From: Anaerovorax odorimutans
GTDB lineage: Bacteria > Bacillota > Clostridia > Peptostreptococcales > JAAYPU01
Direction of reading: 5' to 3'
DNA: 38,376 nt
Assembly: GCA_016841185.1 (NCBI GenBank)
Contig: JAENZQ010000031.1
Coordinates: 1 to 38,376 of the forward strand
Every line of letters starts with the position of its first letter. Positions within the stretch are counted from its first letter, which is position 1. The notes below the pieces were generated by a model. It was given only the letters and a program-made list of their open reading frames with translations, did not search any database and had not been told where the DNA came from. Shown here piece by piece: positions 5,758 through 35,722 of this stretch. A program made the position numbers and the translations under genes.

Positions 5758-5764
5758 ACATATT

Positions 5765-6202: not shown

Positions 6203-6208
6203 CTGTAC

Positions 6209-6776: not shown

Positions 6777-6820
6777 CATAGAAGTAATTATGACGAGAAA
6801 GTAAGAATGGAGGGGAGAGT

Positions 6821-7228: not shown

Positions 7229-7333
7229 GATGAATTCATTTATATCGGGGAAACACTCCTTCACAGTTGCACAAATATTACGACCCGTTTAGATAGCTTA
7301 AACAAATTAAATAATGAAGGAGGTCTTTGTGCA

Positions 7334-7723: not shown

Positions 7724-7737
7724 GTTTATAACATAAT

Positions 7738-7780
7738 AAAAATAGCCAAGAGCATACTTATAGGCTCCTGGTTATTTTTT
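7738..7780 (+). terminator. Intrinsic terminator
   Basis: The left arm around AAAATAGCCAAGAGC pairs with GGCTCCTGGTTATT (one G-T wobble, one mismatch) and is followed by TTTTTTT. It lies 10 bases after the stop of the 129-residue gene. Confidence 0.8.
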
Positions 7781-9218: not shown

Positions 9219-9285
9219 TAGGCAAGAGAGTAAGCTATAATAAAAAGGGTGATTGACCATATAAAAATAATTCGGAGTGTGTGCG

Positions 9286-9888: not shown

Positions 9889-9906
9889 TACTAGGAGATG
9901 TTGAAC

Positions 9907-10473: not shown

Positions 10474-10494
10474 ACGAGTTGTGGAGGGATGGCA

Positions 10495-14046: not shown

Positions 14047-14087
14047 CAGTATACATCATATATCCGGATTAGAAAGGTGATACGCAG

Positions 14088-17624: not shown

Positions 17625-17638
17625 ACTGCGGAGGAATT

Positions 17639-20191: not shown

Positions 20192-20194
20192 TAT

Positions 20195-20273
20195 GGGGTC
20201 TGGCCTGACATTGATACCTAATGTCAGTGTTGATATTTACCATTAAGTAAATGTTAATGTCAGGCCTGACCCC
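20195..20273. repeat. Palindromic repeat between pglZ and brxL
   Basis: GGGGTCTGGCCTGACATT (20195-20212) is matched by AATGTCAGGCCTGACCCC (20256-20273) with one mismatch in 18. Inside, CTGACATT at 20205-20212 can instead pair with AATGTCAG at 20220-20227, and ATTTAC can pair with GTAAAT (20235-20252), so two folds compete. It ends 23 bases before the brxL start. Confidence 0.85.
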
Positions 20274-20296
20274 TATGCACCGAAAGCGAGGCGGGA

Positions 20297-22336
20297 ATGA
20301 TGGATGAGATAAATCTGGATACGAAACTGAACCAGTATTTTGCAGGCCGGGTAGTACGCAAAGATCTGACCAATATGATAAAACAGGGGGCCAATGTACC
20401 TACCTACGTGCTCGAATATCTTCTCGGTATGTACTGTGCTACGGATGATGACGAAGCTATTCTTGAGGGAGTAGAACGAGTTAAGAAAATCCTGGCTGAT
20501 AATTTCGTCCGTCCAGATGAAGCTGAAAAAGTTAAGTCACATATTAAGGAACTAGGCCAGTATACAGTTATAGACAAGCTAACGGTCAAACTGAATGAAA
20601 AACGTGATATTTATGAAGCTGAATTCTCCAATCTGGGGCTAAAAGGAGTAGCGGTTAACCCTGATTATGTTAAAAAGTATGACAAGCTTCTGGCCGGTGG
20701 TATATGGGTCATACTAAAGATGGAATATTTTTATGATGAAGAGAATCGTAACAATAATCCCTTCCGCATTGAAAGCCTCAAACCTATTCAAATGCCTAAT
20801 ATGGACTTAGATGAGATCCTGGAGGGACGTAAAAATTTCACTAAAGATGAATGGATGGATGTGTTAATTCGTTCCACCGGATTGGAACCTACCCAGTTTG
20901 AACCTGAAGTTAAGTGGCACATAATCTTGCGGTTGGTACCGCTGGTGGAAAATAACTATAACCTATGTGAACTGGGCCCAAGGGGGACGGGAAAATCACA
21001 TATTTATAAAGAAATCTCGCCTAATTCTATCCTGGTATCAGGAGGGCAGACTACGGTTGCTAATCTATTCTACAATATGGCATCTCGATCCATCGGGCTG
21101 GTAGGACTTTGGGATTGTGTGGCATTTGATGAAGTTGCCGGTATCAAATTTAAAGATAAAGACGGTATTCAAATAATGAAGGATTATATGGCGTCAGGTT
21201 CCTTTGCCCGGGGCAAGGAAGAGAAAAACGCCAATGCTTCTATGGTTTTTGTAGGCAATATTAATGAAAGCCTGGATTTTCTCCTGAAGACTTCCCATCT
21301 CTTTGCACCATTTCCTGAAGAAATGGCTAATGACAGCGCCTTTTTTGATCGTATGCATTACTATCTGCCCGGATGGGAAATCCCGAAGATGCGCCCTGAG
21401 TTAATTACTAATAATTATGGATTTATAGTAGACTACCTGGCTGAGTATCTGCGGGAAATGCGTAAGCACAATTTTGCTGATGCAATTGACCGCTATTTTA
21501 AACTGGGTAATAACCTTAATCAGCGGGATGTTATTGCAGTGCGCAAGACCGTATCCGGCTTGATGAAACTGCTCTATCCGCATGGAGAGTTCACCCGGGA
21601 TGATGTTGCTGAAATACTGCAGTATGCACTTATTGGCCGGCGCAGGGTCAAGGAACAGCTCAAAAAAATAGGTGGCATGGAGTTCTATGATGTTCATTTC
21701 TCATATATCGACCGTGAAAGTTTGCAGGAAGAATTTGTAGCTGTACCTGAACAGGGCGGTGGAAAACTGATTCCCGAGGGATTAGGCAAACCCGGACATG
21801 TCTATGTGGTTGGAAAAGGAGACTCCGGGATGATCGGCGTTTTTAAGCTGGAGAATCAGGCCGTTTCAGGTACAGGTAAATTTGAGAGAACTGGACTGGG
21901 TTCACGTAAAGAGGTCAAGGAAGCCATTGATACCGCTTTCCGGTATTTTACCGCTAACTGTAAAAATGTTAGTGCAGGTATCAGTACCAAGACCAGAGAT
22001 TACTTAATGCATGCCTCAGACCTGCAGGGTATTGGAATGAGTTCCGAGCTGGCCCTGGCTGAATTCATTGGCCTCTGTTCCAGCGCCCTGGAAAGACCGG
22101 TTCAGGAGAGCCTGGTTATTTTAGGAAAAATTACTGTATCGGGAACAATAGAAAAAATCTCTGATTTCGCCAATGTCCTGCAGGTCTGCGTAGATGCCGG
22201 AGCTAAACGGGTACTGATTCCAGCCGTATCAGTAGCCGACCTCCAGACCGTACCACCCGAGCTGCTGATAAAAATCCAGCCGATATTTTATTCTGATCCA
22301 ATAGATTCCGTATTTAAAGCGCTTGGGGCGGTGTAA
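20297..22336 (+). CDS. brxL: BREX AAA+/Lon-like protein BrxL
   Basis: A 679-residue last core gene of the type 1 BREX operon. The AAA+ Walker A is GPRGTGKS at 227-234, and Walker B-like CVAFDEVAG follows. The C-terminus has a Lon-type fold with GMSSELAL (S582/S583) and GKITVSGTI (K611), in the places of the Lon serine-lysine pair. BrxL forms ring-shaped, DNA-binding AAA+ assemblies and is required for exclusion. The start may be ATG 20297 or the next codon, ATG 20300; the ribosome site (GAGGCGGG) is weak, and the palindrome just upstream may influence expression. No terminator is seen after the gene, so transcription may continue into the AbiGi-like gene. Confidence 0.95.
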   Translation: MMDEINLDTKLNQYFAGRVVRKDLTNMIKQGANVPTYVLEYLLGMYCATDDDEAILEGVERVKKILADNFVRPDEAEKVKSHIKELGQYTVIDKLTVKLNEKRDIYEAEFSNLGLKGVAVNPDYVKKYDKLLAGGIWVILKMEYFYDEENRNNNPFRIESLKPIQMPNMDLDEILEGRKNFTKDEWMDVLIRSTGLEPTQFEPEVKWHIILRLVPLVENNYNLCELGPRGTGKSHIYKEISPNSILVSGGQTTVANLFYNMASRSIGLVGLWDCVAFDEVAGIKFKDKDGIQIMKDYMASGSFARGKEEKNANASMVFVGNINESLDFLLKTSHLFAPFPEEMANDSAFFDRMHYYLPGWEIPKMRPELITNNYGFIVDYLAEYLREMRKHNFADAIDRYFKLGNNLNQRDVIAVRKTVSGLMKLLYPHGEFTRDDVAEILQYALIGRRRVKEQLKKIGGMEFYDVHFSYIDRESLQEEFVAVPEQGGGKLIPEGLGKPGHVYVVGKGDSGMIGVFKLENQAVSGTGKFERTGLGSRKEVKEAIDTAFRYFTANCKNVSAGISTKTRDYLMHASDLQGIGMSSELALAEFIGLCSSALERPVQESLVILGKITVSGTIEKISDFANVLQVCVDAGAKRVLIPAVSVADLQTVPPELLIKIQPIFYSDPIDSVFKALGAV

Positions 22337-22384
22337 GAAACGAAAAACGCTTAGGTACGATCTAATGAGATGGTAGGTGATAAT

Positions 22385-23188
22385 ATGGCCGTTAGTGCAA
22401 ACGCATTATTTCATTTTACGAGCAGTATAAATATTGTTAAGAGTATTTTAGAAAATGGGTTTTATCCCCGGTATTGCATGGAAAAAAGGGATTTCTTAAA
22501 TGTTTATCCCGCAAGTGAGCTTAGAAACTCGGCTAGTCCGATGGTATGTTTTTGTGATATTCCACTGAGTTTAATAAATCAACATGCTAATGAGTATGGT
22601 AGGTATGGAATAGGTATTAATAAGGAATTGGCTCAGAGATTAAATTTACAGCCAGTGACCTATGTTTCTTCAAAATCAAAAACAACAAAATATATAAATT
22701 ACAGCTATGCTGCCCTAAAAAAATATCACCCTCTTAATGAAAAACCAATCAAGGAATTGATGGATTTAGATTATTTGCACGGCGAGGCTTTGGATGCAAT
22801 TTTTTATCTAAAATCATATGAGGGAAAAAATTGGCGAAAAAAGAGCTTTGCTGGGAAAAAGATATGCTTTTATGATGAACGGGAATGGAGATTTGTACCA
22901 GAACAAGTTCCATTAATGTTTGCAGATGTACCTCGATTTCTATCAAGAGATTTATTTATTGATATAGAAGCCTTAAATGAATTAAATAAAAAACTTGAAA
23001 TATGCAAACTACCTATTAACGAAAAAATTATTCAATATATTATAGTTAGTCAAGATAGTGAAGTGCGGCAGATGGTAAATATCATTATGAATTTGGACGA
23101 AATGTGTGGATACCAATTATCAGTTGAGGATAAGGGTATGTTATGTACCAAAATTATTTCAATGGAGAGAATAGAATCGGATTTTTAA
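22385..23188 (+). CDS. AbiGi-like abortive-infection protein
   Basis: About 267 residues. The N-terminus ALFHFTSSINIVKSILENGFYPRYCMEK, then PMVCFCDIPLS and YGRYGIGINKE, is characteristic of the AbiGi family (abortive phage resistance), which shares features with ADP-ribosyltransferase-like proteins. ATG 22385 is preferred, with AGGTGA just upstream. It lies 49 bp after brxL and 20 bp before the SEFIR gene, so it may form a two-gene unit with the latter. Whether it is a toxin, antitoxin or modifier here cannot be told from sequence. The AT content is higher than in brxL. Confidence 0.72.
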   Translation: MAVSANALFHFTSSINIVKSILENGFYPRYCMEKRDFLNVYPASELRNSASPMVCFCDIPLSLINQHANEYGRYGIGINKELAQRLNLQPVTYVSSKSKTTKYINYSYAALKKYHPLNEKPIKELMDLDYLHGEALDAIFYLKSYEGKNWRKKSFAGKKICFYDEREWRFVPEQVPLMFADVPRFLSRDLFIDIEALNELNKKLEICKLPINEKIIQYIIVSQDSEVRQMVNIIMNLDEMCGYQLSVEDKGMLCTKIISMERIESDF

Positions 23189-23207
23189 ACGCAGGGGAGG
23201 GAGAGTT

Positions 23208-24182
23208 ATGAACAAAGTTCCCAGTGCCTTTGTCAGTTACAGCTGGGACAGTAAAGAACACCAGGAGTGGGTTCTCGGGCTAGTGAATTTACTTAGGGAA
23301 AACGGAGTAGATGCTACTGCAGATGCGTTTGAAACTCAAAAAGGTACAGTAAATCTTTACAATATGATGATAGATAAAATAAGGAGCACTGACTTCACGG
23401 TTATTGTCCTCACTCCAGAATATGCTGCAAAAGCTGATGAATTTCAGGGTGGAGTTGGCTTCGAAACTGCACTTTTAGTACCTTTTATCCAAGAAAACCT
23501 GCAAAAAATTATTCCCATTATGAAGTATACAGGTGGAAAAGACAACGCAATTCCTTTTTACCTTAAAGGGGTTCATTATATAGATTTTTCTAATAAGAGT
23601 GAATTTGATGAAAAATTTAATGAACTTTTACACCGGATACATAGAATTGATTTAATTGAAAAATCTCCCCTGGGAGAGAAACCTAACTTAATACCCAAAA
23701 AGATTGGGACAGCTAATAAACCAGCATTTAATCATTTCGATGGGCTAATACCTGATTTTCGGGAAATAACTGATATAGATAAAAATAGATTTATGAGGGA
23801 TAGTTTCATTCAAATCAGGGATGGGCTTTTAAATCTGTTAGAGCAAACAAAGATAAAGAATTCCAATTTTGAGTATGATTTCGAAAATGTAAACAGCAGA
23901 AAGGCAATATGTAAGATATATATCAATGGTCGCCAGCAATATGGTTTTAAGATATGGCTGGGGAATGGTTTCTATTCTAAAACGGATACCATAAATTTAG
24001 CCTATGGCAGCCACATCTCTGACAGTGATAATTCCACGAATGAGATTATTACTTGTAATGCTATAAAAGATAAATCACTTATTTTGGAAATGACCATGAA
24101 TATGTATGGGAATAATGAAGCGAATACTCCTGAAGCAATATTAAGGGAAATATGGACGAATATAATGCAGTGGCTAAATTAG
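23208..24182 (+). CDS. SEFIR/TIR-like domain protein
   Basis: A 324-residue protein with a good ribosome site (GGGAGGGAG) before ATG 23208. The first 140 residues match a SEFIR domain, a TIR relative: AFVSYSWDSKEHQEWVLGLVNLLRENGVD, then DFTVIVLTPEYA and a late KIIPIM strand. The remaining 180 residues form an unrecognised domain, possibly a sensor or effector. Bacterial TIR/SEFIR proteins act in phage defence, in several cases by depleting NAD or by signalling. The position between an AbiGi-like gene and a peptide cluster fits a defence role. Confidence 0.78.
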   Translation: MNKVPSAFVSYSWDSKEHQEWVLGLVNLLRENGVDATADAFETQKGTVNLYNMMIDKIRSTDFTVIVLTPEYAAKADEFQGGVGFETALLVPFIQENLQKIIPIMKYTGGKDNAIPFYLKGVHYIDFSNKSEFDEKFNELLHRIHRIDLIEKSPLGEKPNLIPKKIGTANKPAFNHFDGLIPDFREITDIDKNRFMRDSFIQIRDGLLNLLEQTKIKNSNFEYDFENVNSRKAICKIYINGRQQYGFKIWLGNGFYSKTDTINLAYGSHISDSDNSTNEIITCNAIKDKSLILEMTMNMYGNNEANTPEAILREIWTNIMQWLN

Positions 24183-24214: not shown

Positions 24215-25228
24215 ATGTACGATGCTAAGGCTGTAGAAAACGAGTTTTATTTTCAATGGCACTTCGTTGTAAAGTGTAATTTGCGTTGTATCCATTGCTA
24301 CCAGAATCATTACAATACTAATGAACTGTCCAGGGAAAAAATGTTATTTATTGCAGAAACAATGGAAAATACTTTAAAAAAATGGAGAAAAATTGGAAGG
24401 ATTTCTCTGACGGGAGGAGAACCTTTTACTAGTAAGAGTAATTTAGTGGATTTAATCGAATTCTTTGACAATTCAGAATATTTCGGACGGATAGGAATAT
24501 TAACAAATGGAACGTTAATCGATGACAGTATAGCAATTAAACTTGCTCGCTTTGGCAAGCTAAGTGAAATACAGGTGTCCATTGATGGATCAAATGCACG
24601 CATTCATGACCAGATCAGGGGAACGGGAAGCTTTTTACAAGCTGTAAATGGTATTAAATTATTGAAGAGGTATGGATTTTATGTTTCCATAATGTTTACC
24701 CTGCATAAATTGAATCAAAATGATGTGTTGAATGTTATAGATCTAGCCAACGAACTGGGTGTTGATGCAATTACTATAGAACGGGTTACTCCCATGAGTG
24801 AGAATGATATAGAGAAGCTGTTTATATCACCAGAAAATTTACACGAAATATACAATAAAATTTATCATAAAAAAGAAAAAGTCGAAAAAAATTCAGATTT
24901 AAAAATTCGTGTATCTCGTCCCCTCTGGACGCTTATAAATGAAGATATAGGAGGCTTTTGCCCGGTAGGATTTACCAGTTTATGTATACTGCATGATGGC
25001 ACCATTCTTCCTTGTCGGCGATTGGAAATACCTTTAGGTAACATATTTTCAGATGGAATCTATAAGATTTGGTATACATCAGATGTACTTTGGCAAATAA
25101 GAAACAAAAAACTATTGACCGGAAAATGCAAAGAATGTACTTTGCTGCAGAATTGTGGAGGATGTCGAGCCATTGCTTATTCTGTTAACGGGAGCTATAT
25201 GGCTGAAGATCCCCAATGCTGGAAATAG
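24215..25228 (+). CDS. Radical SAM/SPASM peptide-modifying enzyme
   Basis: 337 residues, ATG with GGAGG 7 bases upstream. The radical SAM cluster motif is C21-NLR-C25-IH-C28 (CxxxCxxC). ISLTGGEP is the second typical motif. The C-terminus carries a SPASM domain for further iron-sulfur clusters: GFCPVG, SLC, LPCRR, then CKECTLLQNCGGCR and a last C near the end. Such enzymes install thioether or carbon-carbon links in ribosomally made peptides. The PqqD-like protein and the Cys-rich precursor follow directly, so the precursor is the likely substrate. The bond formed cannot be predicted. Confidence 0.88.
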   Translation: MYDAKAVENEFYFQWHFVVKCNLRCIHCYQNHYNTNELSREKMLFIAETMENTLKKWRKIGRISLTGGEPFTSKSNLVDLIEFFDNSEYFGRIGILTNGTLIDDSIAIKLARFGKLSEIQVSIDGSNARIHDQIRGTGSFLQAVNGIKLLKRYGFYVSIMFTLHKLNQNDVLNVIDLANELGVDAITIERVTPMSENDIEKLFISPENLHEIYNKIYHKKEKVEKNSDLKIRVSRPLWTLINEDIGGFCPVGFTSLCILHDGTILPCRRLEIPLGNIFSDGIYKIWYTSDVLWQIRNKKLLTGKCKECTLLQNCGGCRAIAYSVNGSYMAEDPQCWK

Positions 25229-25248
25229 GAATTGAGGTAAGTTGATTG

Positions 25249-25533
25249 ATGGAGAATAAGGTCTATGCTCTTAGCAGCAGTTATAGCTTGTTTAAAGGTG
25301 AATTTAATGATATAAAATATTATCTATTCAACATTGAAGATGGAAGCATCTACCGATTGAATGAGGTCAGCTATGATATGCTGGCGCTGTTTGATGGCAA
25401 AAGGGATGCCAATAAAGTATTTACATTGTTTAATGATATGTATCAAGGAGAGAAAGATACAATGATGATTGACTTTAAGAATTTGCTGCAAACATGGCTG
25501 GATAAAGAAATATTAATTACAGGGGGTGAATAG
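25249..25533 (+). CDS. PqqD-like peptide recognition protein (RRE)
   Basis: 94 residues. The pattern YYLFNIEDGSIYRLNEVSYDMLALFDGKRD, followed by a helical DFKNLLQTWLDKEILI, is that of a stand-alone PqqD-like winged-helix protein, the recognition element that binds RiPP leader peptides. ATG 25249 (ribosome site GAGGT) is preferred over TTG 25246. It ends one base before the precursor ATG, so it is transcribed with it. The match is by pattern, not by a profile search. Confidence 0.75.
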   Translation: MENKVYALSSSYSLFKGEFNDIKYYLFNIEDGSIYRLNEVSYDMLALFDGKRDANKVFTLFNDMYQGEKDTMMIDFKNLLQTWLDKEILITGGE

Positions 25534-25534
25534 C

Positions 25535-25669
25535 ATGGAAGGCAATAAAAAGGAATACCAAACGCCAGTGTTTGAGGAAGAACAGGAAATGAACTTTTCC
25601 AAGGAGATATGGGAAGAATTTGGTGATGGAAAATGGTGTTTTGGCTGTACTAACTGCAACTGTAACTAA
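25535..25669 (+). CDS. Cys-rich RiPP precursor peptide
   Basis: A 44-residue gene with strong ribosome site AGGGGGTGA. The first 33 residues are an acidic, leader-like segment (YQTPVFEEEQEMNFSKEIW). The C-terminal core WCFGCTNCNCN holds all four cysteines (35, 38, 41, 43) and ends in Asn. This is the classic form of a precursor for a radical SAM/SPASM enzyme, and it sits right after the PqqD-like gene. A hairpin follows its stop. It is too short for many gene finders. Its modification and activity are unknown; a thioether-containing or metal-binding product is an inference from the cysteine spacing. Confidence 0.85.
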   Translation: MEGNKKEYQTPVFEEEQEMNFSKEIWEEFGDGKWCFGCTNCNCN

Positions 25670-25693
25670 ACTATATTAAGATAATTATGTTTT

Positions 25694-25725
25694 ACTAGGA
25701 GGTCGATGCAAGTCGGGCTCCTAGT
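25694..25725 (+). terminator. Hairpin after the precursor gene
   Basis: ACTAGGAG pairs with CTCCTAGT around a 16-base loop, which itself has a 3-bp inner pairing (CGA/TCG). It is followed by TTTG only, so it may be a partial terminator that leaves more precursor message than downstream message, as is common in RiPP clusters. Confidence 0.5.
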
Positions 25726-25763
25726 TTGTCCAGGGGACTTATAGTGAAGGGAAGAGGTCTAAA

Positions 25764-27245
25764 ATGGATAAGGGGGAGAACACAGAAAAAAGAAGCTGCC
25801 AGATATTAAAACATACCAATATATGGGAAATAGTAATTATAATTTTAATATTTATGGGTATATTTTATTTCGGGTATTTTTTATGGTTTATATGGGGAGT
25901 TGGTAAAGAGTCAGTGAAAGAACGGATAATGACTTTTAATGTAGAAACTACTTTTAATAATTCAGATACTGGAAAAGTCTTTTTGAGTAAAGATCAGTAT
26001 GAAGAGATGCGGCAAACATTAGAGGAGATTCAAAAATATAACGATTATAACCACGAAAATAATTTGTCTGTTTCTACGTTAAATAACTTTTACGCTTCAT
26101 TATTTACTGCTATTGCGGTATTAATTGCTATTATTGCATTAATAGGCTGGCGAAGCTACCAGAAGCAATTTGAAGATTATAGTTCGCGTTTAGACGTTAT
26201 GAGGGAAGATATTGATAAATATTTTATCGAAATTCAAGAACAAGAGAGAAAAATGAAGGAAGATAATAACAACTATATTAACCAAATAAAGAAACAAAGG
26301 ACAGAAATGACGGAAGCAATTAGAAAATATTTGGACCTCGAATCGAAAGTAGACTTCTTACTGAAAAAGAAAAAACATGCTGAATGGGTTGAGAAGAAGT
26401 TTGAATCAAAAAAGACTAACTCTTCAAATATTTCGTTTAAGTTGAATTTAAATGATGATGAAGACCAAAAAACTCTTGAGAATATTACTGATTCAGTAAT
26501 TGCTGAACATGAAGAGACTGCATGGCTGGAAGTAATTATAGCTCATGAACTAGTTTCTGATCCAGACTCTATTGATGAAGAAAAATTAAAAGATGCTGAA
26601 AAGATATATCAATTTAACGAAAATAGAAATTTGTTTAAACCTAATTCGGCTATTGAACCATATCTATACCACTTTATGGGTGAATTATATCATACGAAAT
26701 TTGAAAAATATCAGCAAAAATATAATGAAGCACAATTGGTTGATATACTAGAAAAATCAAGAGAATACTACTATAAATCATTGAAACTAAGAGGAGAAAA
26801 CGATCAAATTCAGGCCCGAAGTAATCTGGCAGTTGTGTTGATTGATTTAGTTAAATTAAAGATAGGGCACTTGAATAATAATCAGGTGGATTTGAACCCT
26901 GAAAGCACAAAAAAGGAAATAGGAAACTTGCTAGACGAGGCAGAAAATCATCTATCTTTCGTAGAAGATAAGAACCCTGATTTCAATACTTATTGGGATC
27001 AAGCTCGTGCTACATATTATAAGAGTATGGCTAAAATTATGGACGAGCGTCAAAGTGAAGATATACAAACACTGCTAAAAAAATCTGTAAAAATGATTAC
27101 TTACAAAAAAGAAAAGGATATATTCCTTAACAGACTCAAGGAAGAGCTAAGTGAATTAGATGGGCGAGGTTTCCCTGGTAATATGGAACTTATTCAAGAA
27201 ATACAAGGCATGCTTGATGATAAGGCTTTGAGTGAGAGGGATTAA
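25764..27245 (+). CDS. Membrane protein with coiled coil and TPR-like C-terminus
   Basis: A 493-residue protein not recognised as a known family. Two membrane segments are seen: residues 21-45 (IWEIVIIILIFMGIFYFGYF...) and 108-128 (NFYASLFTAIAVLIAIIALIG). They enclose a short segment of about 60 residues that is probably extracytoplasmic, or the reverse. Residues about 135-205 form a Glu/Lys/Gln-rich coiled coil. The C-terminal 230 residues are helical and repeat-like (ARSNLAVVLIDLVKLKI, TYWDQARATYYKSMAKI), resembling TPR-type repeats. It could be an immunity, sensor or export partner for the peptide; this is inference. It overlaps nothing and is followed 3 bp later by the next gene. Confidence 0.65.
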   Translation: MDKGENTEKRSCQILKHTNIWEIVIIILIFMGIFYFGYFLWFIWGVGKESVKERIMTFNVETTFNNSDTGKVFLSKDQYEEMRQTLEEIQKYNDYNHENNLSVSTLNNFYASLFTAIAVLIAIIALIGWRSYQKQFEDYSSRLDVMREDIDKYFIEIQEQERKMKEDNNNYINQIKKQRTEMTEAIRKYLDLESKVDFLLKKKKHAEWVEKKFESKKTNSSNISFKLNLNDDEDQKTLENITDSVIAEHEETAWLEVIIAHELVSDPDSIDEEKLKDAEKIYQFNENRNLFKPNSAIEPYLYHFMGELYHTKFEKYQQKYNEAQLVDILEKSREYYYKSLKLRGENDQIQARSNLAVVLIDLVKLKIGHLNNNQVDLNPESTKKEIGNLLDEAENHLSFVEDKNPDFNTYWDQARATYYKSMAKIMDERQSEDIQTLLKKSVKMITYKKEKDIFLNRLKEELSELDGRGFPGNMELIQEIQGMLDDKALSERD

Positions 27246-27248
27246 CAT

Positions 27249-28472
27249 ATGATTTTTGATACTCATGTACACATAGGAAAAAAGAAATTCATGGTTAAAA
27301 TTAAAAATGAAAACAGGGATCTACCTGCTTACAATTCGATTATAGAAAATACCTGGGAAAAATATATTAAAATCGCTGTAAAAAATAACATTTATAAGGC
27401 ATTAATCTTTCCATTTCCTCTAGAAGAAGTGGATATTTATCAAGCCAACAATTATATACATACTGCCTACGAAATGAACCGTGAACTTTTTATTCCCTTT
27501 TATTTACTTGATGAACAGCTTGACCTTGATGAACTCGAACTAAATCAGGTGTTTGGTCTAAAAGAACATTTTTACATAAGCCGGAACGTTGATATTAGAG
27601 CATATTTTCCTGTTTATGAGTATCTGCAGGACAAAGGCAAGTTCCTGTATATACACCCTCATATGAGTGAACGGATAGAACGGATTCACCATATCAAAAA
27701 TGAATTTCCACATCTTAAAATAATTCTGGCTCATTCCGGTAGAAAATGGCCATTCACCGGAGAAGAAGTATTAGATCTAGTTGTTCCTGAATTCAAATCA
27801 TATGAAGATCTTTATTTTGATACCTCAACCATTTCGGATAGTAAGGTAATCAGCAAAATGACAAATATGCTGGGCGGGCACCGGGTATTGTTTGGTTCAG
27901 ACTATCCATTTTCCCAGCCATCAGTAGATATATACCAAGCAGAGACTGAAATGATAGATAAACTTGATGTGACCGATGAAGACCGGGAAAATATTTTGAG
28001 AAATAATTTCAAAAGACTATTTCTTGAAAAAGTTTGGATAAGAAGAGTAGCTAGAGAGGATCGTACGAAGCTGTTCGAAATTTTTACTGAGCTCAGTGCA
28101 CAGGATAGAAAATTTCTGGCTTTAGATCAGAAGCTAGACGTAATAAAAACTAATATAAGAGATGAACGCCATATTTATATTGCTGAGGACAACAACAATA
28201 ATATTGTTGGTTATATTCGAGAAGGTGGCAGATCCAACCAGGGGGCGATTATTGAGGAGATATTAATCCCACGAAAGTACCGTGGTAAAGGCTATGCGGA
28301 TTTATTAATCAGAACAGTTTATAATAAATTTAGCTATGTAGATGCCAAAACATTCATGGATAATACTGCTGTTCATGCTCTTAATATAAGACTCGGCTTT
28401 GATATTGTAAAACAATCAAAAAGCGGGAAAATACTATATTGGAGAAAAATAAATGATAAACGAATCAAATAA
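27249..28472 (+). CDS. Amidohydrolase-GNAT acetyltransferase fusion
   Basis: 407 residues with two domains. Residues 1-265 are an amidohydrolase/TIM-barrel metallohydrolase (Amidohydrolase_2 type): DTHVHIG with H6 and H8, IHPHMSER, ILAHSG and LFGSDYPF supply the expected His and Asp metal ligands. Residues 270-405 are a GNAT N-acetyltransferase with IVGYIREGG and the acetyl-CoA loop RKYRGKGYADLL. Hydrolase and transferase in one chain suggest deacylation and acylation of one substrate, perhaps the peptide or a small building block. The stop is 20 bp inside the next gene, so translation is coupled. Confidence 0.8.
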   Translation: MIFDTHVHIGKKKFMVKIKNENRDLPAYNSIIENTWEKYIKIAVKNNIYKALIFPFPLEEVDIYQANNYIHTAYEMNRELFIPFYLLDEQLDLDELELNQVFGLKEHFYISRNVDIRAYFPVYEYLQDKGKFLYIHPHMSERIERIHHIKNEFPHLKIILAHSGRKWPFTGEEVLDLVVPEFKSYEDLYFDTSTISDSKVISKMTNMLGGHRVLFGSDYPFSQPSVDIYQAETEMIDKLDVTDEDRENILRNNFKRLFLEKVWIRRVAREDRTKLFEIFTELSAQDRKFLALDQKLDVIKTNIRDERHIYIAEDNNNNIVGYIREGGRSNQGAIIEEILIPRKYRGKGYADLLIRTVYNKFSYVDAKTFMDNTAVHALNIRLGFDIVKQSKSGKILYWRKINDKRIK

Positions 28473-29610
28473 TACCTTAGACGGACGAGTCTCAGGGGTA
28501 AGAAACCTGGGTGGAATTATTTTTATTACACTATTATCCAACAATGAAGAAAACTCACTTGTTTGTAGTAAAGATTCGATTGATATTACTGTGTTTAATA
28601 AAGTAAAAAAAATAAGAAAAGGGGACTATTGTGAATTCCAAGTTAATTTGGCAGATAATGAATTTAGGATAATCCAGCTTCAGAATCATCTGCCAAAAAA
28701 AAGTGAATCCTTATGGGATGAGCAGCAATTAGATATTTTACAAGCATATTCCTATTTGCTTCATCTTTTAAGGCTTTATGCAAATAATAATGGATATATT
28801 GAAGTTAGAGTACCCTCAGTACACTATGGACAAAACAAAGATGAGACTTTCTTTCTTGACTTTTTTGGAAATCCAGCCCGGCTTTCCTCGAGCAACGCCC
28901 TTTATCTTAATCTTTATGCTGCCCAGTTATCAAAAGCTTATTGTTTACAGAAATGTTATAGAGCAGAGCCTTCCCATACTAACAGACATCTAGCAGAATT
29001 TGATATGTTGGAAATGGTTAAGGCTAATTGTGACATGAATCAATCTATGTTTGAACTAGAATGCCTAATAAAATTTGTCGTATCAGAATGGGCTATCAGC
29101 CCCTTTAGTTACCTGCTTAAAGTGGATTCAAGCCTTATTGAAAAATCAAATTTCCCTATAATAGACTATAAAAAACTTGAAGACCAGTACAGTTTATATA
29201 GTAAAGGTCTTGGTAAATTCGAGCGAGAAATTGCGGGAAATTTACCAACTTTTGTAGTTGAGTTCCCGAGAAAAATAGCATCATGGATTGCAAAACCTGT
29301 TGATAGTAATTATTCTCTTTCTTACAATCTATTGGTTCCAAAGGTTGGAGAAATAGCTGAAGGTAATGAAAAACAAAGTGATTTAAATATCTTGGAAAGC
29401 AAGTTTAGACTTGCTGGGGTAGAAAAACAACTCAGGTGGTATATAAATATGATACCGTATTCTGATATTTTGTTATCCGGATTTGGATTAGGAGTAGAGC
29501 GTCTTTTTATGTGGCTAACAGGCCTGCAAAACATAAGGAACATAAACCCCATATTTCGAGATACTCAATTTTCGGAAATAAAAATAAAGAGGGAGCAGAA
29601 TAATGCATAA
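28453..29610 (+). CDS. Asparaginyl-tRNA-synthetase-like protein
   Basis: 385 residues, shorter than a housekeeping AsnRS (about 430-460). An N-terminal OB-fold (about 1-80, LDGRVSGVRNLGGIIFITLL) is followed by a class II catalytic core. Motif 2 is YRAEPSHTNRHLAEFDMLE (169-187, with R170 and E172), LLVPKVGEIAEG is the region near the ATP site, and motif 3 is GFGLGVERLFMWLTGL (343-358, R350). All key class II residues look intact, so it can probably still form an aminoacyl adenylate. In a peptide-modification cluster it may add an amino acid to a peptide or make a free amide, rather than charge tRNA for translation. Confidence 0.85.
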   Translation: MINESNNTLDGRVSGVRNLGGIIFITLLSNNEENSLVCSKDSIDITVFNKVKKIRKGDYCEFQVNLADNEFRIIQLQNHLPKKSESLWDEQQLDILQAYSYLLHLLRLYANNNGYIEVRVPSVHYGQNKDETFFLDFFGNPARLSSSNALYLNLYAAQLSKAYCLQKCYRAEPSHTNRHLAEFDMLEMVKANCDMNQSMFELECLIKFVVSEWAISPFSYLLKVDSSLIEKSNFPIIDYKKLEDQYSLYSKGLGKFEREIAGNLPTFVVEFPRKIASWIAKPVDSNYSLSYNLLVPKVGEIAEGNEKQSDLNILESKFRLAGVEKQLRWYINMIPYSDILLSGFGLGVERLFMWLTGLQNIRNINPIFRDTQFSEIKIKREQNNA

Positions 29611-30418
29611 CTTAAAGTATTTAATAAAAACAGCGGCTTCTCTTCAAAATATGATAATTGAGATGAATGAAAAGGAAATTGAATTGAAAAGAATAAGCAA
29701 GACATCATCACTGTTAATGTTAAGTGGAATATCAAAGAATTCAATACCCACTAACATAATTGAAAGGTGTTTAGATAATCAAAATTCTGATGGGGGTTGG
29801 ATAAGTATAGTTGATACAATGTGGAATACATTTTTTTTAAAAAGCGTTGATGAAAATACATTTGAGCGGAACATAAATATGGGGATAGAATTCTTGAAGA
29901 TTCAAAGGAATTCAGAAGGTTTATGGGGGAGGTCATATCGGGATATTTACAGAATACCAGTAACTGGGGTTTTGTTCTATTTATTACCGGAACTTGCTGA
30001 CCAACATAGTTTATATTTGTTGGAGCAATTATGCCAAAAAGAAAAAAATACCTTAACCTATAAAGCAGCTTATACGTTATTAGCATTTAATAAAAATGAT
30101 TATTATCCTGATGATATAAATTTAATTACCGACTTGGTAGAGTGGTTAATCTCTAACCAGAGAAATGATGGAGGTTTTGCGCCCTGGTTAGAGCATCCTA
30201 TAGAGTCAGACATATATTGTACTAGCCTGGCTGTTCTGGGATTGTTACAATATTCTGAACTTGTGCCGGAACGAGTACTTGCAAGGGCATTTGAATGGAT
30301 AATAAGCAACCAATTAAATAATGGTATTTGGAAATACCATGAAATAGAAGATGGAGCTTCCTGGGGAATGTATGCGATGTCAGAAGTTATGAGGAGTGGG
30401 ATATTAGATTTTGGCTAA
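29603..30418 (+). CDS. Prenyltransferase/squalene-cyclase repeat protein
   Basis: 271 residues built of QW-type repeats: NQNSDGGW (59-66), IQRNSEGLWG (100-109), NQRNDGGFAPW (185-195) and NQLNNGIWKY (237-245). These form an alpha/alpha toroid as in squalene-hopene cyclases and protein prenyltransferases. The length is about half that of a full terpene cyclase, and no DxDD motif is seen, so it is unlikely to be an active class II cyclase. A binding or peptide-modifying scaffold role is possible. It overlaps the preceding gene by 8 bp. Confidence 0.75.
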   Translation: MHNLKYLIKTAASLQNMIIEMNEKEIELKRISKTSSLLMLSGISKNSIPTNIIERCLDNQNSDGGWISIVDTMWNTFFLKSVDENTFERNINMGIEFLKIQRNSEGLWGRSYRDIYRIPVTGVLFYLLPELADQHSLYLLEQLCQKEKNTLTYKAAYTLLAFNKNDYYPDDINLITDLVEWLISNQRNDGGFAPWLEHPIESDIYCTSLAVLGLLQYSELVPERVLARAFEWIISNQLNNGIWKYHEIEDGASWGMYAMSEVMRSGILDFG

Positions 30419-31721
30419 TATATTATTAATTTATCCGTCACCGGATAATCTTAAGGACTGGCGATTTGGGTTTTCTTTAAATTTATTATATTTAGCAACC
30501 ATTTTAAAACAGGTAGGGCATGCTGTAATATTAAAAGATTATTCAATTGAGAATTTTGAGCTGAACGAATTAGCTGAGCTTTTGAAAACAATCGATGTGG
30601 TCATTATTGAATTTGATAGTTTCCCGCTAAAAAGAGCACTAAATATTTATAACGGTGAAAATATAGCGGAATATATTAAACGAAATAATAGAAAAATACA
30701 AACTATTGCTGTTGGAAATGACTGCATCTTATTACCGCGGGCTATTCCAAATATTGATATTGTGATTAATCATGAAGCTGAACCCAGCATCGTTTACGTT
30801 ATTGATTGCTTATTGAATGATAAGCAAGTCGTAACTGATTTATTAAAAGATAGAGACAATAATTTAGATGATCTGCCTTTCCCAGATCGTAGCATCTTGT
30901 CTAGTTATGCTGAACATGGTGGTACTATTAAAAGAAAGCCTAATTTAGCAAAATCAACACTTATACAAACCAGCCGTGGATGCATGAATACTTGCAGGTT
31001 TTGCCAGAGAAAAGGATGGTTAGGTCAATATCGGGAACATTCGATAGAATATGTTATTAAAGAATTTAAGGAAATTGCAGCAAATAAATATACTAATATT
31101 TGGATTTGTGATGATAATTTTACCTTTAACCTTAAGAGAGCAAAGAATATATTACATAGCCTTAAAACTGAAAGAATTTCTGAAGGAATGAAATTAGCAC
31201 TTAGCAGCTGGGCTAATATAGATTTCGACTTTATAGATATTGCCAAGAAGGCAAACGTATCAGTAATAAGTATGGGAATTGAGTCAGTAAATCATGATAT
31301 TCTTCACTTTTATAGAAAAAAAATAGATCCAGCAAGAGCTGCGGAATTAATCCAATATGCTGATGAAATAGGGATATATACGGTGGGGAATTTTATATTG
31401 GGAGCTCCCATGGAAACAGAGAGGACTATCAATGAGTGCTTCGAGTATGCAATAAAGGTGCCTTTTGATCAAGTCAACATAAAAATATTGGACTATATGA
31501 TAGGTGCAGACCTATATGATGAACTGCCTGAAAAACTAAAGACAGCAGAAAGGCATGTTTTTGCTTGTAAGGAAACAGGACTAAACGACTTACCTCTGAG
31601 TTACTTAAAAGAGATAATATTCCATTTCCGGAAGGAGTTTGATATTAATAGAAGGCAGCATCTTTTCGAGAAAATTAAATCATATGATTATCCTTATAAA
31701 ATGGAGTTATTCAATGATTAA
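30411..31721 (+). CDS. Radical SAM enzyme with B12-binding-like N-terminal domain
   Basis: 436 residues. The first 150 residues (ILLIYPSPDN, LYLATILKQVGHAVILKDYS, VVIIEFDS) have the Rossmann-like fold found in B12-binding radical SAM proteins, but no DxHxxG cobalamin-ligand motif is seen. The CxxxCxxC motif is C191-MNT-C195-RF-C198 in TSRGCMNTCRFC. IWICDDNFTF and the later GIESVN and FILGAP fit the radical SAM core. The start is a TTG overlapping the end of the previous gene, with GAGGAG upstream. It may methylate, cyclise or otherwise alter the peptide or a cofactor. It is the last gene of the cluster, before an IS66 scar. Confidence 0.83.
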   Translation: MANILLIYPSPDNLKDWRFGFSLNLLYLATILKQVGHAVILKDYSIENFELNELAELLKTIDVVIIEFDSFPLKRALNIYNGENIAEYIKRNNRKIQTIAVGNDCILLPRAIPNIDIVINHEAEPSIVYVIDCLLNDKQVVTDLLKDRDNNLDDLPFPDRSILSSYAEHGGTIKRKPNLAKSTLIQTSRGCMNTCRFCQRKGWLGQYREHSIEYVIKEFKEIAANKYTNIWICDDNFTFNLKRAKNILHSLKTERISEGMKLALSSWANIDFDFIDIAKKANVSVISMGIESVNHDILHFYRKKIDPARAAELIQYADEIGIYTVGNFILGAPMETERTINECFEYAIKVPFDQVNIKILDYMIGADLYDELPEKLKTAERHVFACKETGLNDLPLSYLKEIIFHFRKEFDINRRQHLFEKIKSYDYPYKMELFND

Positions 31722-31938: not shown

Positions 31939-33906
31939 ATGTATATTCGGGCATTAAAAATCAATAATTTTAGAAGTTTATATGAATTATGGTTTTTACC
32001 CAATCAAGAAGTAAATGTTTTGGTGGGTCCCAATAATAGTGGTAAAACAACTATTTTAACTGCTATTAAGTTGTTGTTTGATCCAACCATTCGGCTGCAG
32101 CGGGACGATGCAATATCAGTTTTTGATTTTCATAATGGAAACATAAACGAACCAATAGAAATTACAGCTTGGGTGCATTTAGGAGAAAATCCAAACAATG
32201 ATATTATCCTTAGATTTGCAGATAAAGTATCTTGTTGGAAGCATAAGGGAGAAATTATTGAAACCGTAATAATTGAACCCGGGGAAGATCCACCTGATAA
32301 AACCGAAGAGTTGTTGGCAGTAAAACTTATAGCTGATTGGAATCAGGAATTAGAAATTGCTGAGACTGAAGTAATTATAATAGATGAAATGATCAACAAA
32401 AAAGGCGTTTTTACATATCAGGATAGAGAGGCAATTAACTTTCGTTACTATGGAACGAATCGCAACCCCGCTTTTGAACTATCGTTAGCTAGGCAGAGTC
32501 TTTTTTCTAAGGCATTGAAAGAAAAAGAAGTAATAAGAGAACTTAGAAACTTAATGGGCATTTTAGAAACGAATAAATCAAGCTTAGTCGAATTGGATAG
32601 CGTTAAAAATGCTTTAAATAATCTAGAGGGGTTCATGTCTCCTGAATTAGTTGGGGGATTTGATAGTTTTACCTTGACTTTCCTTGATGCCAACATAGCA
32701 CGCTTTAAAACCGCCACATCAGTAGGATTGAAAAAAAAGTCCGAAACCCAAGAAAATATAATTCCCTTTTCTTTACTGGGAGATGGAGCACAAAATTTGA
32801 TGCTCCTTACCCAAATTTCAGCTGCTTTAAGCGAAGAAGATTCCTCCCTAATCGTTGCCATAGAAGAACCAGAGCAAAACCTTGAACCTTCCCTGGCTAA
32901 ATGGTTTTTTAATGAGATAACCACTAAAAATGCTAAAAGAACGGGTCAGGTGTTCATTACCACTCATTCTCCTGCTTTCATTGGAGAACTTCATGGCGCA
33001 AATCCGATATGTAGGGTATCACGAAATACCAGCCGTTCACGACAATCAACACAAGTTAGAGTAGGTTCGACTTTAGAACCAGTTTATAGAAAAGCTCTAG
33101 AACAATATCGTGACCTTTACGCTGGCGCTTTATTAGCTCAACATGCACTTATTGTGGAGGGGGCAAGTGAAGAAGGCTTTTTACCTATAGTATTCAATGC
33201 TTTGGGTAAAAAACCGGTTAATAATCCATTTTTCTTGGGTCTTACTATTGTTAATGCGGGTGGCAATGAAAAAGTTTGGAGGCATGCACGTAATCTTAGG
33301 GCTTTAGGGATTACTACACTTGCTTTACTTGATTATGATGTCCCCAAAAAAGAGGTGGAAGACCCTGACGCACATAAGAAAGTTGATCTATATGAATTAT
33401 CAAAAAAATCCGCTGAGCATGTTATTTGTATGCCAAAGAAATCTCTATTATCCTTCTGTACAGGATGTGATATGGAGGTAATGCTTTTATATTATGTGCC
33501 TGTAGATATCCTATATCAAGCGATAATTAGATGTTACCAAGATGCTGGTCATGAGTTAAACAATGATAGTTGGAAAGACTTTGTTAAGAAAAACATAGAA
33601 AAGCCCTTTCAAGAGCTACTTCCCGTAAACTTTCCTTCAAATCTTGCTGAATTTTCACTTGGTGATATAAAATGCCAAGATAACTCAATATGCCAGGAAG
33701 ATCTTCAAAAAGCCTTTTTATATGCTGCTTTACATCAACCACATTCTTGTAAAAGCCAAAAGGATATGAGAATAATCGCTGAAACTATGGTTCAGAACAA
33801 GGTTTTTCCCGCACCAATAACAAGCCTTTATAATAGAATTGTTAAGGTGATGACTGGTCAGGTAACCCCAGGAGGGGATATATTTGAACTTACCGACAAA
33901 GATTAA
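31939..33906 (+). CDS. gajA: Gabija-type OLD-family nuclease, GajA
   Basis: 655 residues, ATG with TAGGAGAG upstream. The N-terminal ABC-type ATPase has Walker A GPNNSGKT (30-37), a signature-like LLGDGAQN and Walker B SLIVAIEEPEQNLEP. A TOPRIM domain follows, with LIVEGASEE (E407) and LALLDYDVP (D465, D467). OLD-type ATPase plus TOPRIM next to a UvrD-like helicase is the Gabija phage-defence pair, where GajA nicks DNA and is controlled by nucleotide levels. It is longer than the roughly 580-residue B. cereus GajA. The next gene starts 22 bp before its stop, so translation is coupled. Confidence 0.87.
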   Translation: MYIRALKINNFRSLYELWFLPNQEVNVLVGPNNSGKTTILTAIKLLFDPTIRLQRDDAISVFDFHNGNINEPIEITAWVHLGENPNNDIILRFADKVSCWKHKGEIIETVIIEPGEDPPDKTEELLAVKLIADWNQELEIAETEVIIIDEMINKKGVFTYQDREAINFRYYGTNRNPAFELSLARQSLFSKALKEKEVIRELRNLMGILETNKSSLVELDSVKNALNNLEGFMSPELVGGFDSFTLTFLDANIARFKTATSVGLKKKSETQENIIPFSLLGDGAQNLMLLTQISAALSEEDSSLIVAIEEPEQNLEPSLAKWFFNEITTKNAKRTGQVFITTHSPAFIGELHGANPICRVSRNTSRSRQSTQVRVGSTLEPVYRKALEQYRDLYAGALLAQHALIVEGASEEGFLPIVFNALGKKPVNNPFFLGLTIVNAGGNEKVWRHARNLRALGITTLALLDYDVPKKEVEDPDAHKKVDLYELSKKSAEHVICMPKKSLLSFCTGCDMEVMLLYYVPVDILYQAIIRCYQDAGHELNNDSWKDFVKKNIEKPFQELLPVNFPSNLAEFSLGDIKCQDNSICQEDLQKAFLYAALHQPHSCKSQKDMRIIAETMVQNKVFPAPITSLYNRIVKVMTGQVTPGGDIFELTDKD

Positions 33907-35722
33907 AGCAGTTCCTGTAGATGACGGTCAGCGAAAAGTTGGCGACATGCTGGAGCTTTACCCTCGAATTATGGTTGAAGCAGCCCCTGGAACAGGGAAG
34001 ACATTCACTGGTGTATATTTAGCTTTGAGGGCACACCGTTCTGGGCTTGTTTCAAAAACCACTCCGGCCCTATTTTTAACGTTTTCAAAAAATGCGCGGG
34101 TACAAATTGAAAATGAAATTCGAAATTATGTTCGACAAGGATGGATGACTAAAGATCAGGTCGCTGCGATTGAAGTCCAAAATTATCATGCTTTTTTCTT
34201 TGAGCTTCTCAATAAGCGGGGGGGAGTATGGGGCATTCCCACACCTGCTACACCATGCTCAATAAATGAACGAAAGCAAGCAACGAAGCTAGCAAAAATA
34301 AAAAAAGCAGACGTTGAGAGAATGTGCGAGCCATTGTGTGGGTCAAATGACACTGTTTCATTGGAAATACGCAACAAGTATAGGAAAATGGCTATAAAAA
34401 GCATGCGCAAAGGCAGACCTCATTACGGGGATTTTGCGCCACTAGCTCGCCATCTGCTTTCCTTCTCAAGTTATACAATTAAATGGCTAAAGACTAAATA
34501 CCCCTTAGTAATTCTTGATGAATTTCAAGATTCTGACTGCTGTCAGTGGGATTTTCTGCAAAAGTGGAGTCCTGAACGTGTTGTAGTTTTTTATGATCGA
34601 TATCAGACTATTCACACTTGGAGAAATGCTGATATGAAAAGAGCAGAGGAAGTAGCTGAAAAATGGAGTATACCAGCATTAGCTAGGACAACATTATCTA
34701 CTCCGCATCGTTCGCAGACAGGTATGGCAGCTTTTTTTATAGATCTTCGGAAGGATAGTTTAAAAGGAGGAGCACTTAAACCAGGAAAAAAACAGCCATT
34801 TATAAACTTCGTTACTCTGGATGAAGGAAGGTATGAAGGAGATCTGGGGCCAATTCGTGATAAATTGCGTTGGGAAGTAATTAAAGAACAGGAAGGGACA
34901 ATTGCCGTAATTTGCCAATATAATACGCTTTCTTCATTTCTTAAGTCTAGTCTTTGCAAGAAGCCATCAAATGGAAGAGGAAAATATTTTTCTTGTAAAG
35001 CCATTAGTTCCGATGGTCCGGAAGAAATATTAAGGAATTACATATATGATCTGTATATGTGTGAGGATGGCGATGGAATAAGGCAGTGGATTGCTGGAGT
35101 AATGAATGATCTATTATTACCGGGTGGCTACCCGAACCATGACATCAATGCTGAATTTGGTAAAAAGACAATAAAAAGAAACCGCGAACCTAACGGACCA
35201 TGGTCAAGGGTATCGGATTTATTAAAGCCTTTTTGGGGAAAGTTGGAGGTTAATTGTCCAGAAAGTTTTACTATGACATTGACACTCCTTCCAGACGTTG
35301 CCAAACTCCTGGCCGCCGGAAATTCTCATCCAGATTATGAAACTATATTTTATATACGGTCTATTGCAAAAACAGCACAAGCATATGGAGCTAATGTTAT
35401 TAGTGATTTGGTTACTCCCATGGAGAACTCATTGTTGCAATCAGGTTATTTATATATAAAAAAACCACCTAGAGGACTATTTATACTCAACGCTTTTCAA
35501 GCTAAAGGGCGTGAGTTCGATCATGTGATTATACCCCTTTTATCAGGAAATGGAGAGCCAATTCATGAGGGAAAAAACAGCAAATGCGTGCCGTATAATT
35601 TTGAAGAGGAGGAGGACAGGCGGCTTCTTTACGTTGCAATGACTCGTGCAAAAAAGAAAATTACTATCATGTACCCGAAAGGAGATCCCTCGTTGTTTCT
35701 CCAGAAATGGGGTCTTCTATGA
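33884..35722 (+). CDS. gajB: Gabija-type UvrD-like helicase, GajB
   Basis: 612 residues started by TTG 33884, 6 bases after GGAGGGG. Superfamily 1 helicase motifs are in order: Walker A AAPGTGKT (33-40), LFLTFSKNA, motif II VILDEFQDSD (209-218, DEFQ), QTIHTW, TPHRSQTG, AFQAKGREFDHVI and motif VI YVAMTRAKK (583-591). It overlaps gajA by 22 bp. In Gabija, GajB hydrolyses nucleotides and assists the GajA complex. It is larger than the roughly 500-residue reference GajB; the extra length lies in the middle (about residues 300-480). Confidence 0.87.
   Translation: MNLPTKIKAVPVDDGQRKVGDMLELYPRIMVEAAPGTGKTFTGVYLALRAHRSGLVSKTTPALFLTFSKNARVQIENEIRNYVRQGWMTKDQVAAIEVQNYHAFFFELLNKRGGVWGIPTPATPCSINERKQATKLAKIKKADVERMCEPLCGSNDTVSLEIRNKYRKMAIKSMRKGRPHYGDFAPLARHLLSFSSYTIKWLKTKYPLVILDEFQDSDCCQWDFLQKWSPERVVVFYDRYQTIHTWRNADMKRAEEVAEKWSIPALARTTLSTPHRSQTGMAAFFIDLRKDSLKGGALKPGKKQPFINFVTLDEGRYEGDLGPIRDKLRWEVIKEQEGTIAVICQYNTLSSFLKSSLCKKPSNGRGKYFSCKAISSDGPEEILRNYIYDLYMCEDGDGIRQWIAGVMNDLLLPGGYPNHDINAEFGKKTIKRNREPNGPWSRVSDLLKPFWGKLEVNCPESFTMTLTLLPDVAKLLAAGNSHPDYETIFYIRSIAKTAQAYGANVISDLVTPMENSLLQSGYLYIKKPPRGLFILNAFQAKGREFDHVIIPLLSGNGEPIHEGKNSKCVPYNFEEEEDRRLLYVAMTRAKKKITIMYPKGDPSLFLQKWGLL

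Follow-up and report, generated by a model that had tools for sequence, protein, structure and literature searches.

Introduction

Radical S-adenosylmethionine (SAM) enzymes with a SPASM domain act on cysteine-rich peptides in the sactipeptide and ranthipeptide pathways, where the maturases are of the SkfB, CteB and PapB type. A related enzyme belongs to the ACGX system (TIGR04340), while lasso peptide clusters combine a PqqD-like protein with a transglutaminase-like protease and an AsnB-like cyclase. Here, we analyse an eight-gene cassette at positions 24215-31721 of a 38,376-base stretch of DNA, "the window", which is a whole contig of the Anaerovorax odorimutans assembly GCA_016841185.1. 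The cassette is best read as a type I member of a family of ribosomally synthesised and post-translationally modified peptides (RiPPs) of the radical SAM class that is without a match in the libraries searched. It appears reasonably probable that the cassette constitutes one conserved RiPP pathway, with the first radical SAM enzyme, rSAM1, acting on the core WCFGCTNCNCN of a 44-residue precursor. The original prediction had called this a candidate undescribed system, and no tested precursor has an NCBIfam or Pfam match above cut-off; among the papers listed by literature searches, which excluded most subscription journals and bioRxiv, none describes the core, the gene combination or a link to defence, an absence that is not proof.

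Of the described families in NCBIfam, that of the ACGX system is the best match to rSAM1, which has a similar length and domain order. However, rSAM1 scores 170.5 bits, far under the cut-off of 400, and belongs to a separate clade from five ACGX-type enzymes; a profile of the precursor finds nothing at E < 0.01 in 17 ACGX-type loci. Among solved structures, SkfB (6efn) comes nearest to the rSAM1 profile (E 1.2e-26). In contrast to sactipeptide and ranthipeptide systems, the cassette has a stand-alone PqqD-like protein, additional genes for a QW-repeat protein, an amidohydrolase and a ligase, and no NCBIfam match for its precursor; a thioether formed by rSAM1 could be of the Cys-to-alpha or the Cys-to-beta/gamma kind. 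Type II relatives of the cassette pair a PqqD-like protein with an AsnB-like enzyme, as lasso peptide clusters do, but the cassettes have a radical SAM enzyme and a cysteine-rich core, some of the AsnB-like enzymes have lost the glutaminase domain, and a Pfam search of selected genes revealed no transglutaminase-like protease. In the window itself, the PqqD-like protein is present, with neither an AsnB-like gene nor such a protease among the eight genes.

The radical SAM enzyme and its precursor

All eight open reading frames (ORFs) are confirmed on the plus strand, with the limits and domain families that had been predicted for them (ORF check, Pfam and NCBIfam). The first, rSAM1 (24215..25228, + strand; 337 residues), matches PF04055 and PF13186. 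It carries the CxxxCxxC motif of a radical SAM/SPASM peptide maturase as CNLRCIHC, together with seven SPASM cysteines. The three cluster cysteines and Cys249, Cys267, Cys305, Cys308, Cys314, Cys317 and Cys335 are invariant in all 27 aligned sequences. The PqqD-like protein (25249..25533, + strand; 94 residues), a putative RiPP recognition element that would bind the leader, matches PF05402 above the Pfam cut-off (E 9e-7); its start is preceded, at a distance of 3 nt, by an in-frame TTG. A homologue of 44% identity is found in the equivalent position in the cassette of another genome of the phylum (locus L056 of genome G343), and the corresponding protein cluster could be assigned in 18 of 27 loci, or 19 with a weaker match in L074.

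The precursor gene (25535..25669, + strand) encodes 44 residues, with a leader running from YQTPVF to MNFSKEIWEEF followed by the core. The ORF has no Pfam family above cut-off, and neither it nor four type II precursors gave a meaningful NCBIfam match. It is nevertheless more than a chance ORF, since homologues occupy the equivalent position in other genomes, the one in L056 being 76% identical. Using a profile built from eight precursors and a detection threshold of E < 0.01, we detected a precursor adjacent to rSAM1 in 25 of the 27 loci, window included; 17 of these are therefore independent finds. The two misses are truncated, their contigs ending 141 (L067) and 315 nt (L075) past rSAM1. 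The weakest match, in L071 (E 0.002), starts 22 nt past rSAM1. A gene-encoded leader-core precursor adjoining its enzyme and, in the window, a leader-binding PqqD domain are both characteristic of the radical SAM class of RiPPs.

The cores fall into two types. Type I, WCFGC[T/S]NCNCN, is found in the window, L056, L059, L060 and L062, with a variant in L061; Asn is the last residue in all but one of these six precursors. Type II, C[RK]QCS[SG]CH[GS]CR, occurs in 13 of 19 precursors and as variants in the remaining six. Not a single Asp or Glu is present in any precursor from the first core cysteine onward. The core is identical in the window, L056 and L059, where each pair differs by 4-6 synonymous and no non-synonymous codon changes; any two of the five standard type I cores are separated by 2-6 synonymous and 0-1 non-synonymous codon changes. 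The precursor is thus conserved beside rSAM1 with mostly synonymous changes in the core.

At E <= 1e-45, rSAM1 is found in three of 398 genomes of the phylum: the window genome (G000), G625 and G343. Scanning a one-genome-per-species collection with two short peptide patterns gave 47 loci, a lower bound. Thirty of these have an rSAM1 identity of at least 37%, one of them (L058) being the window's own sequence in isolate BL5_bin.17; the other 17, at 26-31%, are called ACGX-type from this low identity and not from individual TIGR04340 scores. Alignment and counts refer to the 27 loci with an essentially complete rSAM1, including the window and L056; four further loci are cut by contig ends (L083, L084, L085 and L103). 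In a tree of the 27 sequences and five ACGX-type enzymes, the six type I sequences form one clade (support 100/98). Five type II sequences group with this clade (92/99) within the family; the ACGX-type enzymes branch off separately, on a long branch.

The hosts belong to the Bacillota, Aminicenantes, Hydrogenedentota, Thermodesulfobacteriota, Myxococcota, Actinomycetota, Chloroflexota, Nitrospirota and Bacteroidota, and to the archaeal Thermoplasmatota and Methanobacteriota, although these labels need caution because nearly all are metagenome-assembled genomes by title. The analysis would add a RiPP family that spans archaea and at least seven phyla of bacteria and whose core is strongly conserved. 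Five window proteins searched against plasmids gave only distant matches of <60% identity among the matches listed (the best 20 of 43, 3 of 3, the best 20 of 35 and the best 20 of 380), with none for the QW-repeat protein; a type II rSAM1 matched no plasmid at E <= 1e-50. When four proteins were scanned singly against viruses, no relative was confirmed. The rSAM1 profile matched 42 viral loci (best E 2e-21, at 28% identity), which we place outside the family because their identity is 21-40%, bar one 27-residue match at 56%.

Partner genes of type I and type II cassettes

The cassette in L056 keeps the gene order of the window, with identities of 62% for rSAM1, 25% for the two-transmembrane (two-TM) protein, 28% for the amidohydrolase, 58% for the QW-repeat protein and 55% for the second radical SAM protein, rSAM2. 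A methyltransferase-like gene occupies the slot of the gene resembling asparaginyl-tRNA synthetase (AsnRS). L056 additionally encodes a propeller-like protein, named by inspection like the methyltransferase, and one more radical SAM protein.

The most widespread partner gene encodes the QW-repeat protein (29603..30418, + strand; 271 residues; PF13243), which has squalene-hopene-cyclase-like repeats and is present in 18 of the 21 loci with sufficient downstream sequence, six contigs being too short. In the alignment of these 18 sequences, Arg30, Arg113-Asp114, Tyr153-Lys154 and His246 are invariant. Their profile matches squalene-hopene cyclase (E 1.2e-18), but the protein has about 270 residues compared with 631, the best match is confined to profile positions 174-247 and no lipid genes were recognised in the cassette. 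A squalene-cyclase-like protein would thus emerge as a recurrent RiPP partner.

Two more genes are present in all four type I loci with sufficient sequence (L056, the window, L061 and L062). One encodes rSAM2 (30411..31721, + strand; 436 residues, TTG start; PF04055), whose nearest relatives are HpnJ and B12-dependent radical SAM proteins; its N-terminus has a weak B12-binding-like match (PF02310, E 0.025), below cut-off. The other encodes the amidohydrolase (27249..28472, + strand; 407 residues), fused in the window to a GNAT domain (PF04909 and PF00583). The fusion is Pfam-based in the window and judged by length and similarity in L061 and L062, the latter with a weak acetyltransferase match. 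Its nearest solved structures are 3ij6, then 3cjp and ACMSD decarboxylases, and a search at E <= 1e-15 had the window as the sole match among 297 genomes. With these counts and that for the QW-repeat protein, neither of the outcomes named as refuting in the original prediction, downstream genes that never accompany the precursor and rSAM1 or a precursor that is not conserved, was observed.

The AsnRS-like protein (28453..29610, + strand; 385 residues; PF00152), a putative adenylate-forming enzyme, has the class II tRNA-synthetase core. Like AsnRS and the AsnRS-derived asparagine synthetase A, it keeps the motif 2 and motif 3 regions, as YRAE (169) and HLAEF (179) and as GLGVER (345), respectively. 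AsnRS 3m4p is its nearest solved structure, but where 3m4p has GGSMR, the window protein has EGNEK. Its asnS score of 143.7 bits is below the curated cut-off of 342.6, and the match of its N-terminus to the OB-fold is weak (E 0.01, below the Pfam cut-off), so it falls short of asnS in both score and N-terminal anticodon-binding domain. A homologue is found in L062 alone among the loci compared, with 288 residues and no N-terminal domain. The protein was dropped as a search probe because searches return mainly housekeeping AsnRS, rSAM1 proving the informative probe; a candidate in genome G622 (E 5e-34, 33%) was rejected, as it resembles the housekeeping enzyme.

The two-TM coiled-coil protein (25764..27245, + strand; 493 residues) has hydrophobic stretches at residues 14-48 and 105-133, the only membrane segments found among the products of the eight genes. 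It has no Pfam family at all and no solved relative below E 0.8; homologues are found in L056 and L059, and it is an optional part, possibly a sensor or an effector.

Successive gaps between the eight genes are 20, 1, 94, 3, -20, -8 and -8 nt (negative values are overlaps), so the tight spacing described in the prediction applies to every junction except the one 3' of the precursor. This 94-nt gap (25670..25763, + strand) can form a hairpin (main stem 25695-25724) with a folding energy of -26.7 kcal/mol and a z-score of -2.38, five of 200 shuffles folding equally well. The hairpin is a possible partial terminator or processing site, recalling the partial terminators that raise the precursor dose in RiPP operons.

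Type II cassettes contain an AsnB-like gene in 16 of 17 loci with sufficient sequence, a glycosyltransferase-like gene in 15 of 16, a gene for a metallo-beta-lactamase (MBL) fold protein, c6, in 11 and a gene c10 in four. Pfam names derive from a single member for AsnB and for the glycosyltransferase (both in L076) and from three members for c6 (L076 below cut-off, L068 and L069 above), the others having been clustered by similarity. The MBL motif HxHxDH and His716, Asp744 and His800 are kept in all nine aligned c6 proteins. Of ten AsnB-like proteins aligned, three lack the glutaminase domain (L068, L073 and L082) and two lack its cysteine at position 2 (L077 and L080); these proteins retain the ATP motif SGGxDS. 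Comparable cassettes would thus contain two unrelated adenylating enzymes, AsnRS-like and AsnB-like.

One Thermoplasmatota assembly (JAUWBM01) contains two type II cassettes, L068 and L073, with close rSAM1 enzymes and differing partners (c6 versus c10). A DNA N6/N4-methylase-like gene lies between precursor and c6 in L063 (10402-11142) and L064 (4527-5240; the family search was on L064 only). In L077 and L080, there is an additional radical SAM-like gene upstream of rSAM1, separating it from the precursor.

Proposed pathway

We infer the chemistry, the order of steps and the location and function of the product as follows. The PqqD-like protein probably binds the leader (YQTPVF...) and so positions the C-terminal core for rSAM1, which probably forms radical cross-links, thioether or C-C, at the cysteine-rich core. 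In type I cassettes, the QW-repeat protein, the amidohydrolase(-GNAT) and rSAM2 would act next, in folding or cyclisation, in trimming or acylation and perhaps in C-methylation. An optional carboxylate-activating enzyme, AsnRS-like in the window and AsnB-like in type II, probably acts on the C-terminal carboxylate; activation of the C-terminus is the simplest assumption, as the cores lack Asp and Glu from the first cysteine on. Loss of the glutaminase domain or cysteine with retention of SGGxDS fits a ligase rather than asparagine synthesis for the AsnB-like enzymes. We infer that the AsnB-like and AsnRS-like enzymes perform the same step; L061 has neither.

No transporter, leader peptidase or immunity gene was recognised by Pfam among the eight cassette genes. 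The lack of the first two favours an intracellular product. It would be an effector, a signal or a cofactor, and the antiviral module around the cassette plausibly makes use of it.

Defence genes near the cassettes

The location in a defence island, part of the original prediction, is borne out. Upstream of the cassette is a bacteriophage exclusion (BREX) system, brxA to brxL (9277-22336, + strand), followed by AbiGi and bSEFIR genes (22370..24182, + strand; PADLOC E-values 6.6e-53 and 8.5e-54), which start at 22370 and 23208; the gaps are 19 nt and then 32 nt from the bSEFIR stop to rSAM1. Downstream, a GajA/GajB-like (Gabija-like) pair (31939..35722, + strand; PADLOC GajA 1.4e-51, GajB 5.6e-43) begins 217 nt 3' of the cassette. 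These neighbours are outside the claimed cassette. The G+C content is about 39-43% across BREX compared with 32-35% across the cassette.

BREX, Gabija and Hma genes flank the cassette either in the window or in loci L067, L068, L074, L078 and L083, but the cassette proteins themselves differ from known anti-phage systems: of six from the window compared with PADLOC, four had no match and the two radical SAM proteins matched general radical SAM models only. The c6 protein of L068 had no PADLOC match at E <= 1e-5. Counting flank ORFs of at least 300 residues in the 26 loci other than the window, strong and individually identified PADLOC matches (E <= 1e-30) are present in eight: a DrmD-like helicase in L063, BREX in L067, HmaC in L068, DUF499, DUF1156 and PLD-helicase proteins in L074, a PADLOC type IIG match in L075, a PADLOC type I match in L077, HmaB in L078 and an HmaB-like protein in L083. 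A generic AAA protein in L073 is a weaker match (6.5e-24). A regulator of the RtcR type (CARF-AAA-HTH model), also listed by PADLOC, lies near the cassette in L056 (330-2069).

In total, 116 PADLOC models were matched for 89 test ORFs and 14 for 88 ORFs of 14 ACGX-type control loci, figures that overstate the difference because one helicase alone matches many models; the control loci are mostly from gut and rumen genomes, an imperfect match to the test loci. A rough chance estimate (20 kb in 3 Mb, uniform placing) predicts HmaB near 0.02-0.03 of the 26 loci, and it is seen near three. These data suggest a tendency of the cassette to be located in defence islands, which does not imply a defence function. 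We regard a defence role of the product as doubtful. More specifically, the cassette could be an antiviral module in which a radical-SAM-modified, ligase-capped cysteine peptide works inside the cell, either as effector or as the signal that activates exchangeable partners; these would be the MBL-fold c6, c10, the two-TM protein and the propeller-like protein, encoded close to the precursor and near BREX, Hma or Gabija genes. We hold this unlikely. If the link is real, the agents of microbial immunity would include small modified peptides alongside nucleotides and proteins, an idea that the compact eight-gene unit makes directly testable.

Alternative readings

Several observations weigh against one conserved pathway with an intracellular product used in defence. 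The product is predicted from the genes. The PqqD-like protein is unassigned in eight of 27 loci (L069, L070, L071, L077, L078, L080, L082 and the truncated L067), and the QW-repeat protein is absent from L071, L077 and L080. The AsnRS-like gene is found in only two of four type I loci (the window and L062) and is not a fixed part; L061 lacks both it and the methyltransferase-like gene. The two-TM gene is present in three of six type I loci, the L060 contig being too short to tell. A MATE-like transporter gene upstream in L064 and L084 (one sequence inspected, plus clustering) and an ABC ATPase gene downstream in L072 would fit export in those loci. With regard to defence, a control of nearest genes (up to two ORFs per side) gave at least nine matches in 68 test ORFs (the RtcR regulator of L056, one each in L063, L068, L075 and L078, and two each in L067 and L074) versus nine models, in at most nine ORFs, for 48 control ORFs, which is no clear difference; a claim of strong defence enrichment was withdrawn after this control. 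Hma also does not depend on the cassette: within the phylum of the window, HmaB is found in 27 of 199 genomes, versus three of 398 for rSAM1.

The peptide could instead be secreted, as a bacteriocin or signal RiPP that is merely carried along by mobile defence islands, its genes and those for defence being unlinked cargo. We consider this a real though minor possibility. Many bacteriocins lack a core as strongly conserved across phyla as the one observed here, the family spans archaea and bacteria, and the window cassette contains no recognised exporter, leader peptidase or immunity gene, all of which argues against secretion as unlinked cargo. The lack of a clear difference in the nearest-gene control and the presence of a serine-recombinase-like ORF in the window (by inspection) are in line with it. 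RiPP clusters, including lanthipeptide clusters, have been reported near defence systems, and that study judges un-linked, mutually beneficial traits the likeliest reason (PMC12715929); RiPP families, one radical SAM family among them, are reported to be co-expressed with nearby defence systems (PMC11118758).

A smaller RiPP unit, consisting only of rSAM1, the PqqD-like protein and the precursor, with the QW-repeat protein and rSAM2, would make the AsnRS-like and two-TM proteins unrelated neighbours. Their patchy occurrence, and the gap with its hairpin 3' of the precursor, are what such a unit would predict. The reading frames in the cassette overlap, however, and the AsnRS-like gene of L062, from Bacilli, lies in the same slot as in the window, between the amidohydrolase and the QW-repeat protein. 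On balance, we think this rather unlikely. The claim that eight genes form one pathway is supported for the conserved precursor, rSAM1, PqqD-like protein, QW-repeat protein, rSAM2 and amidohydrolase, but not for the AsnRS-like and two-TM proteins as fixed components.

The product might instead be a ribosomal peptide that acts as a redox cofactor or binds metal, with pyrroloquinoline quinone (PQQ) and mycofactocin as models. The PqqD and SPASM architecture, the distant relationship of rSAM1 to PqqE and the mycofactocin maturases, the strongly conserved cysteine core (CxxCxxCHxC in most type II precursors) and the lack of an exporter in the window cassette are consistent with this. However, no oxidoreductase partner was recognised among the annotated subset of gene clusters, and the sporadic distribution (three of 398 genomes) and mobile setting make a cofactor improbable. 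A microcin-C-like inhibitor, with the AsnRS-like protein as a resistant copy of the target and GNAT as self-immunity, would recall features of microcin C in the terminal Asn of most type I cores and the presence of both genes, but is very improbable given the short L062 protein without an N-terminal domain, the lack of an AsnRS-like gene in the L056 and L061 cassettes and of an MccB-like adenylyltransferase among the eight genes.

Origin of the stretch

The whole window is 99.992% identical, with three mismatches and no gap, to positions 24492-62867 of contig C1 of G625 (JAENZE010000014.1), Syntrophomonas sp. isolate BL5_bin.17, which belongs to another class of the same phylum as the window genome. 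Positions 1-20000 of the G625 contig are absent from the window genome, except for a repeat at the end of that contig and one 61-base match. Recent transfer of the island and assembly contamination both fit these data, and the host of the window is uncertain. Integration of the island at the transfer-messenger RNA (tmRNA) gene of the window genome was considered and is unsupported, that gene being inside another contig with other sequence after it. In G625, the element starts near the 3' end of a tmRNA gene, beside an ORF that is serine-recombinase-like by inspection. Positions 1-1314 (- strand) of the window are a part of this ORF, which, with C1:62867-63409 in G625, marks one end of the element there.

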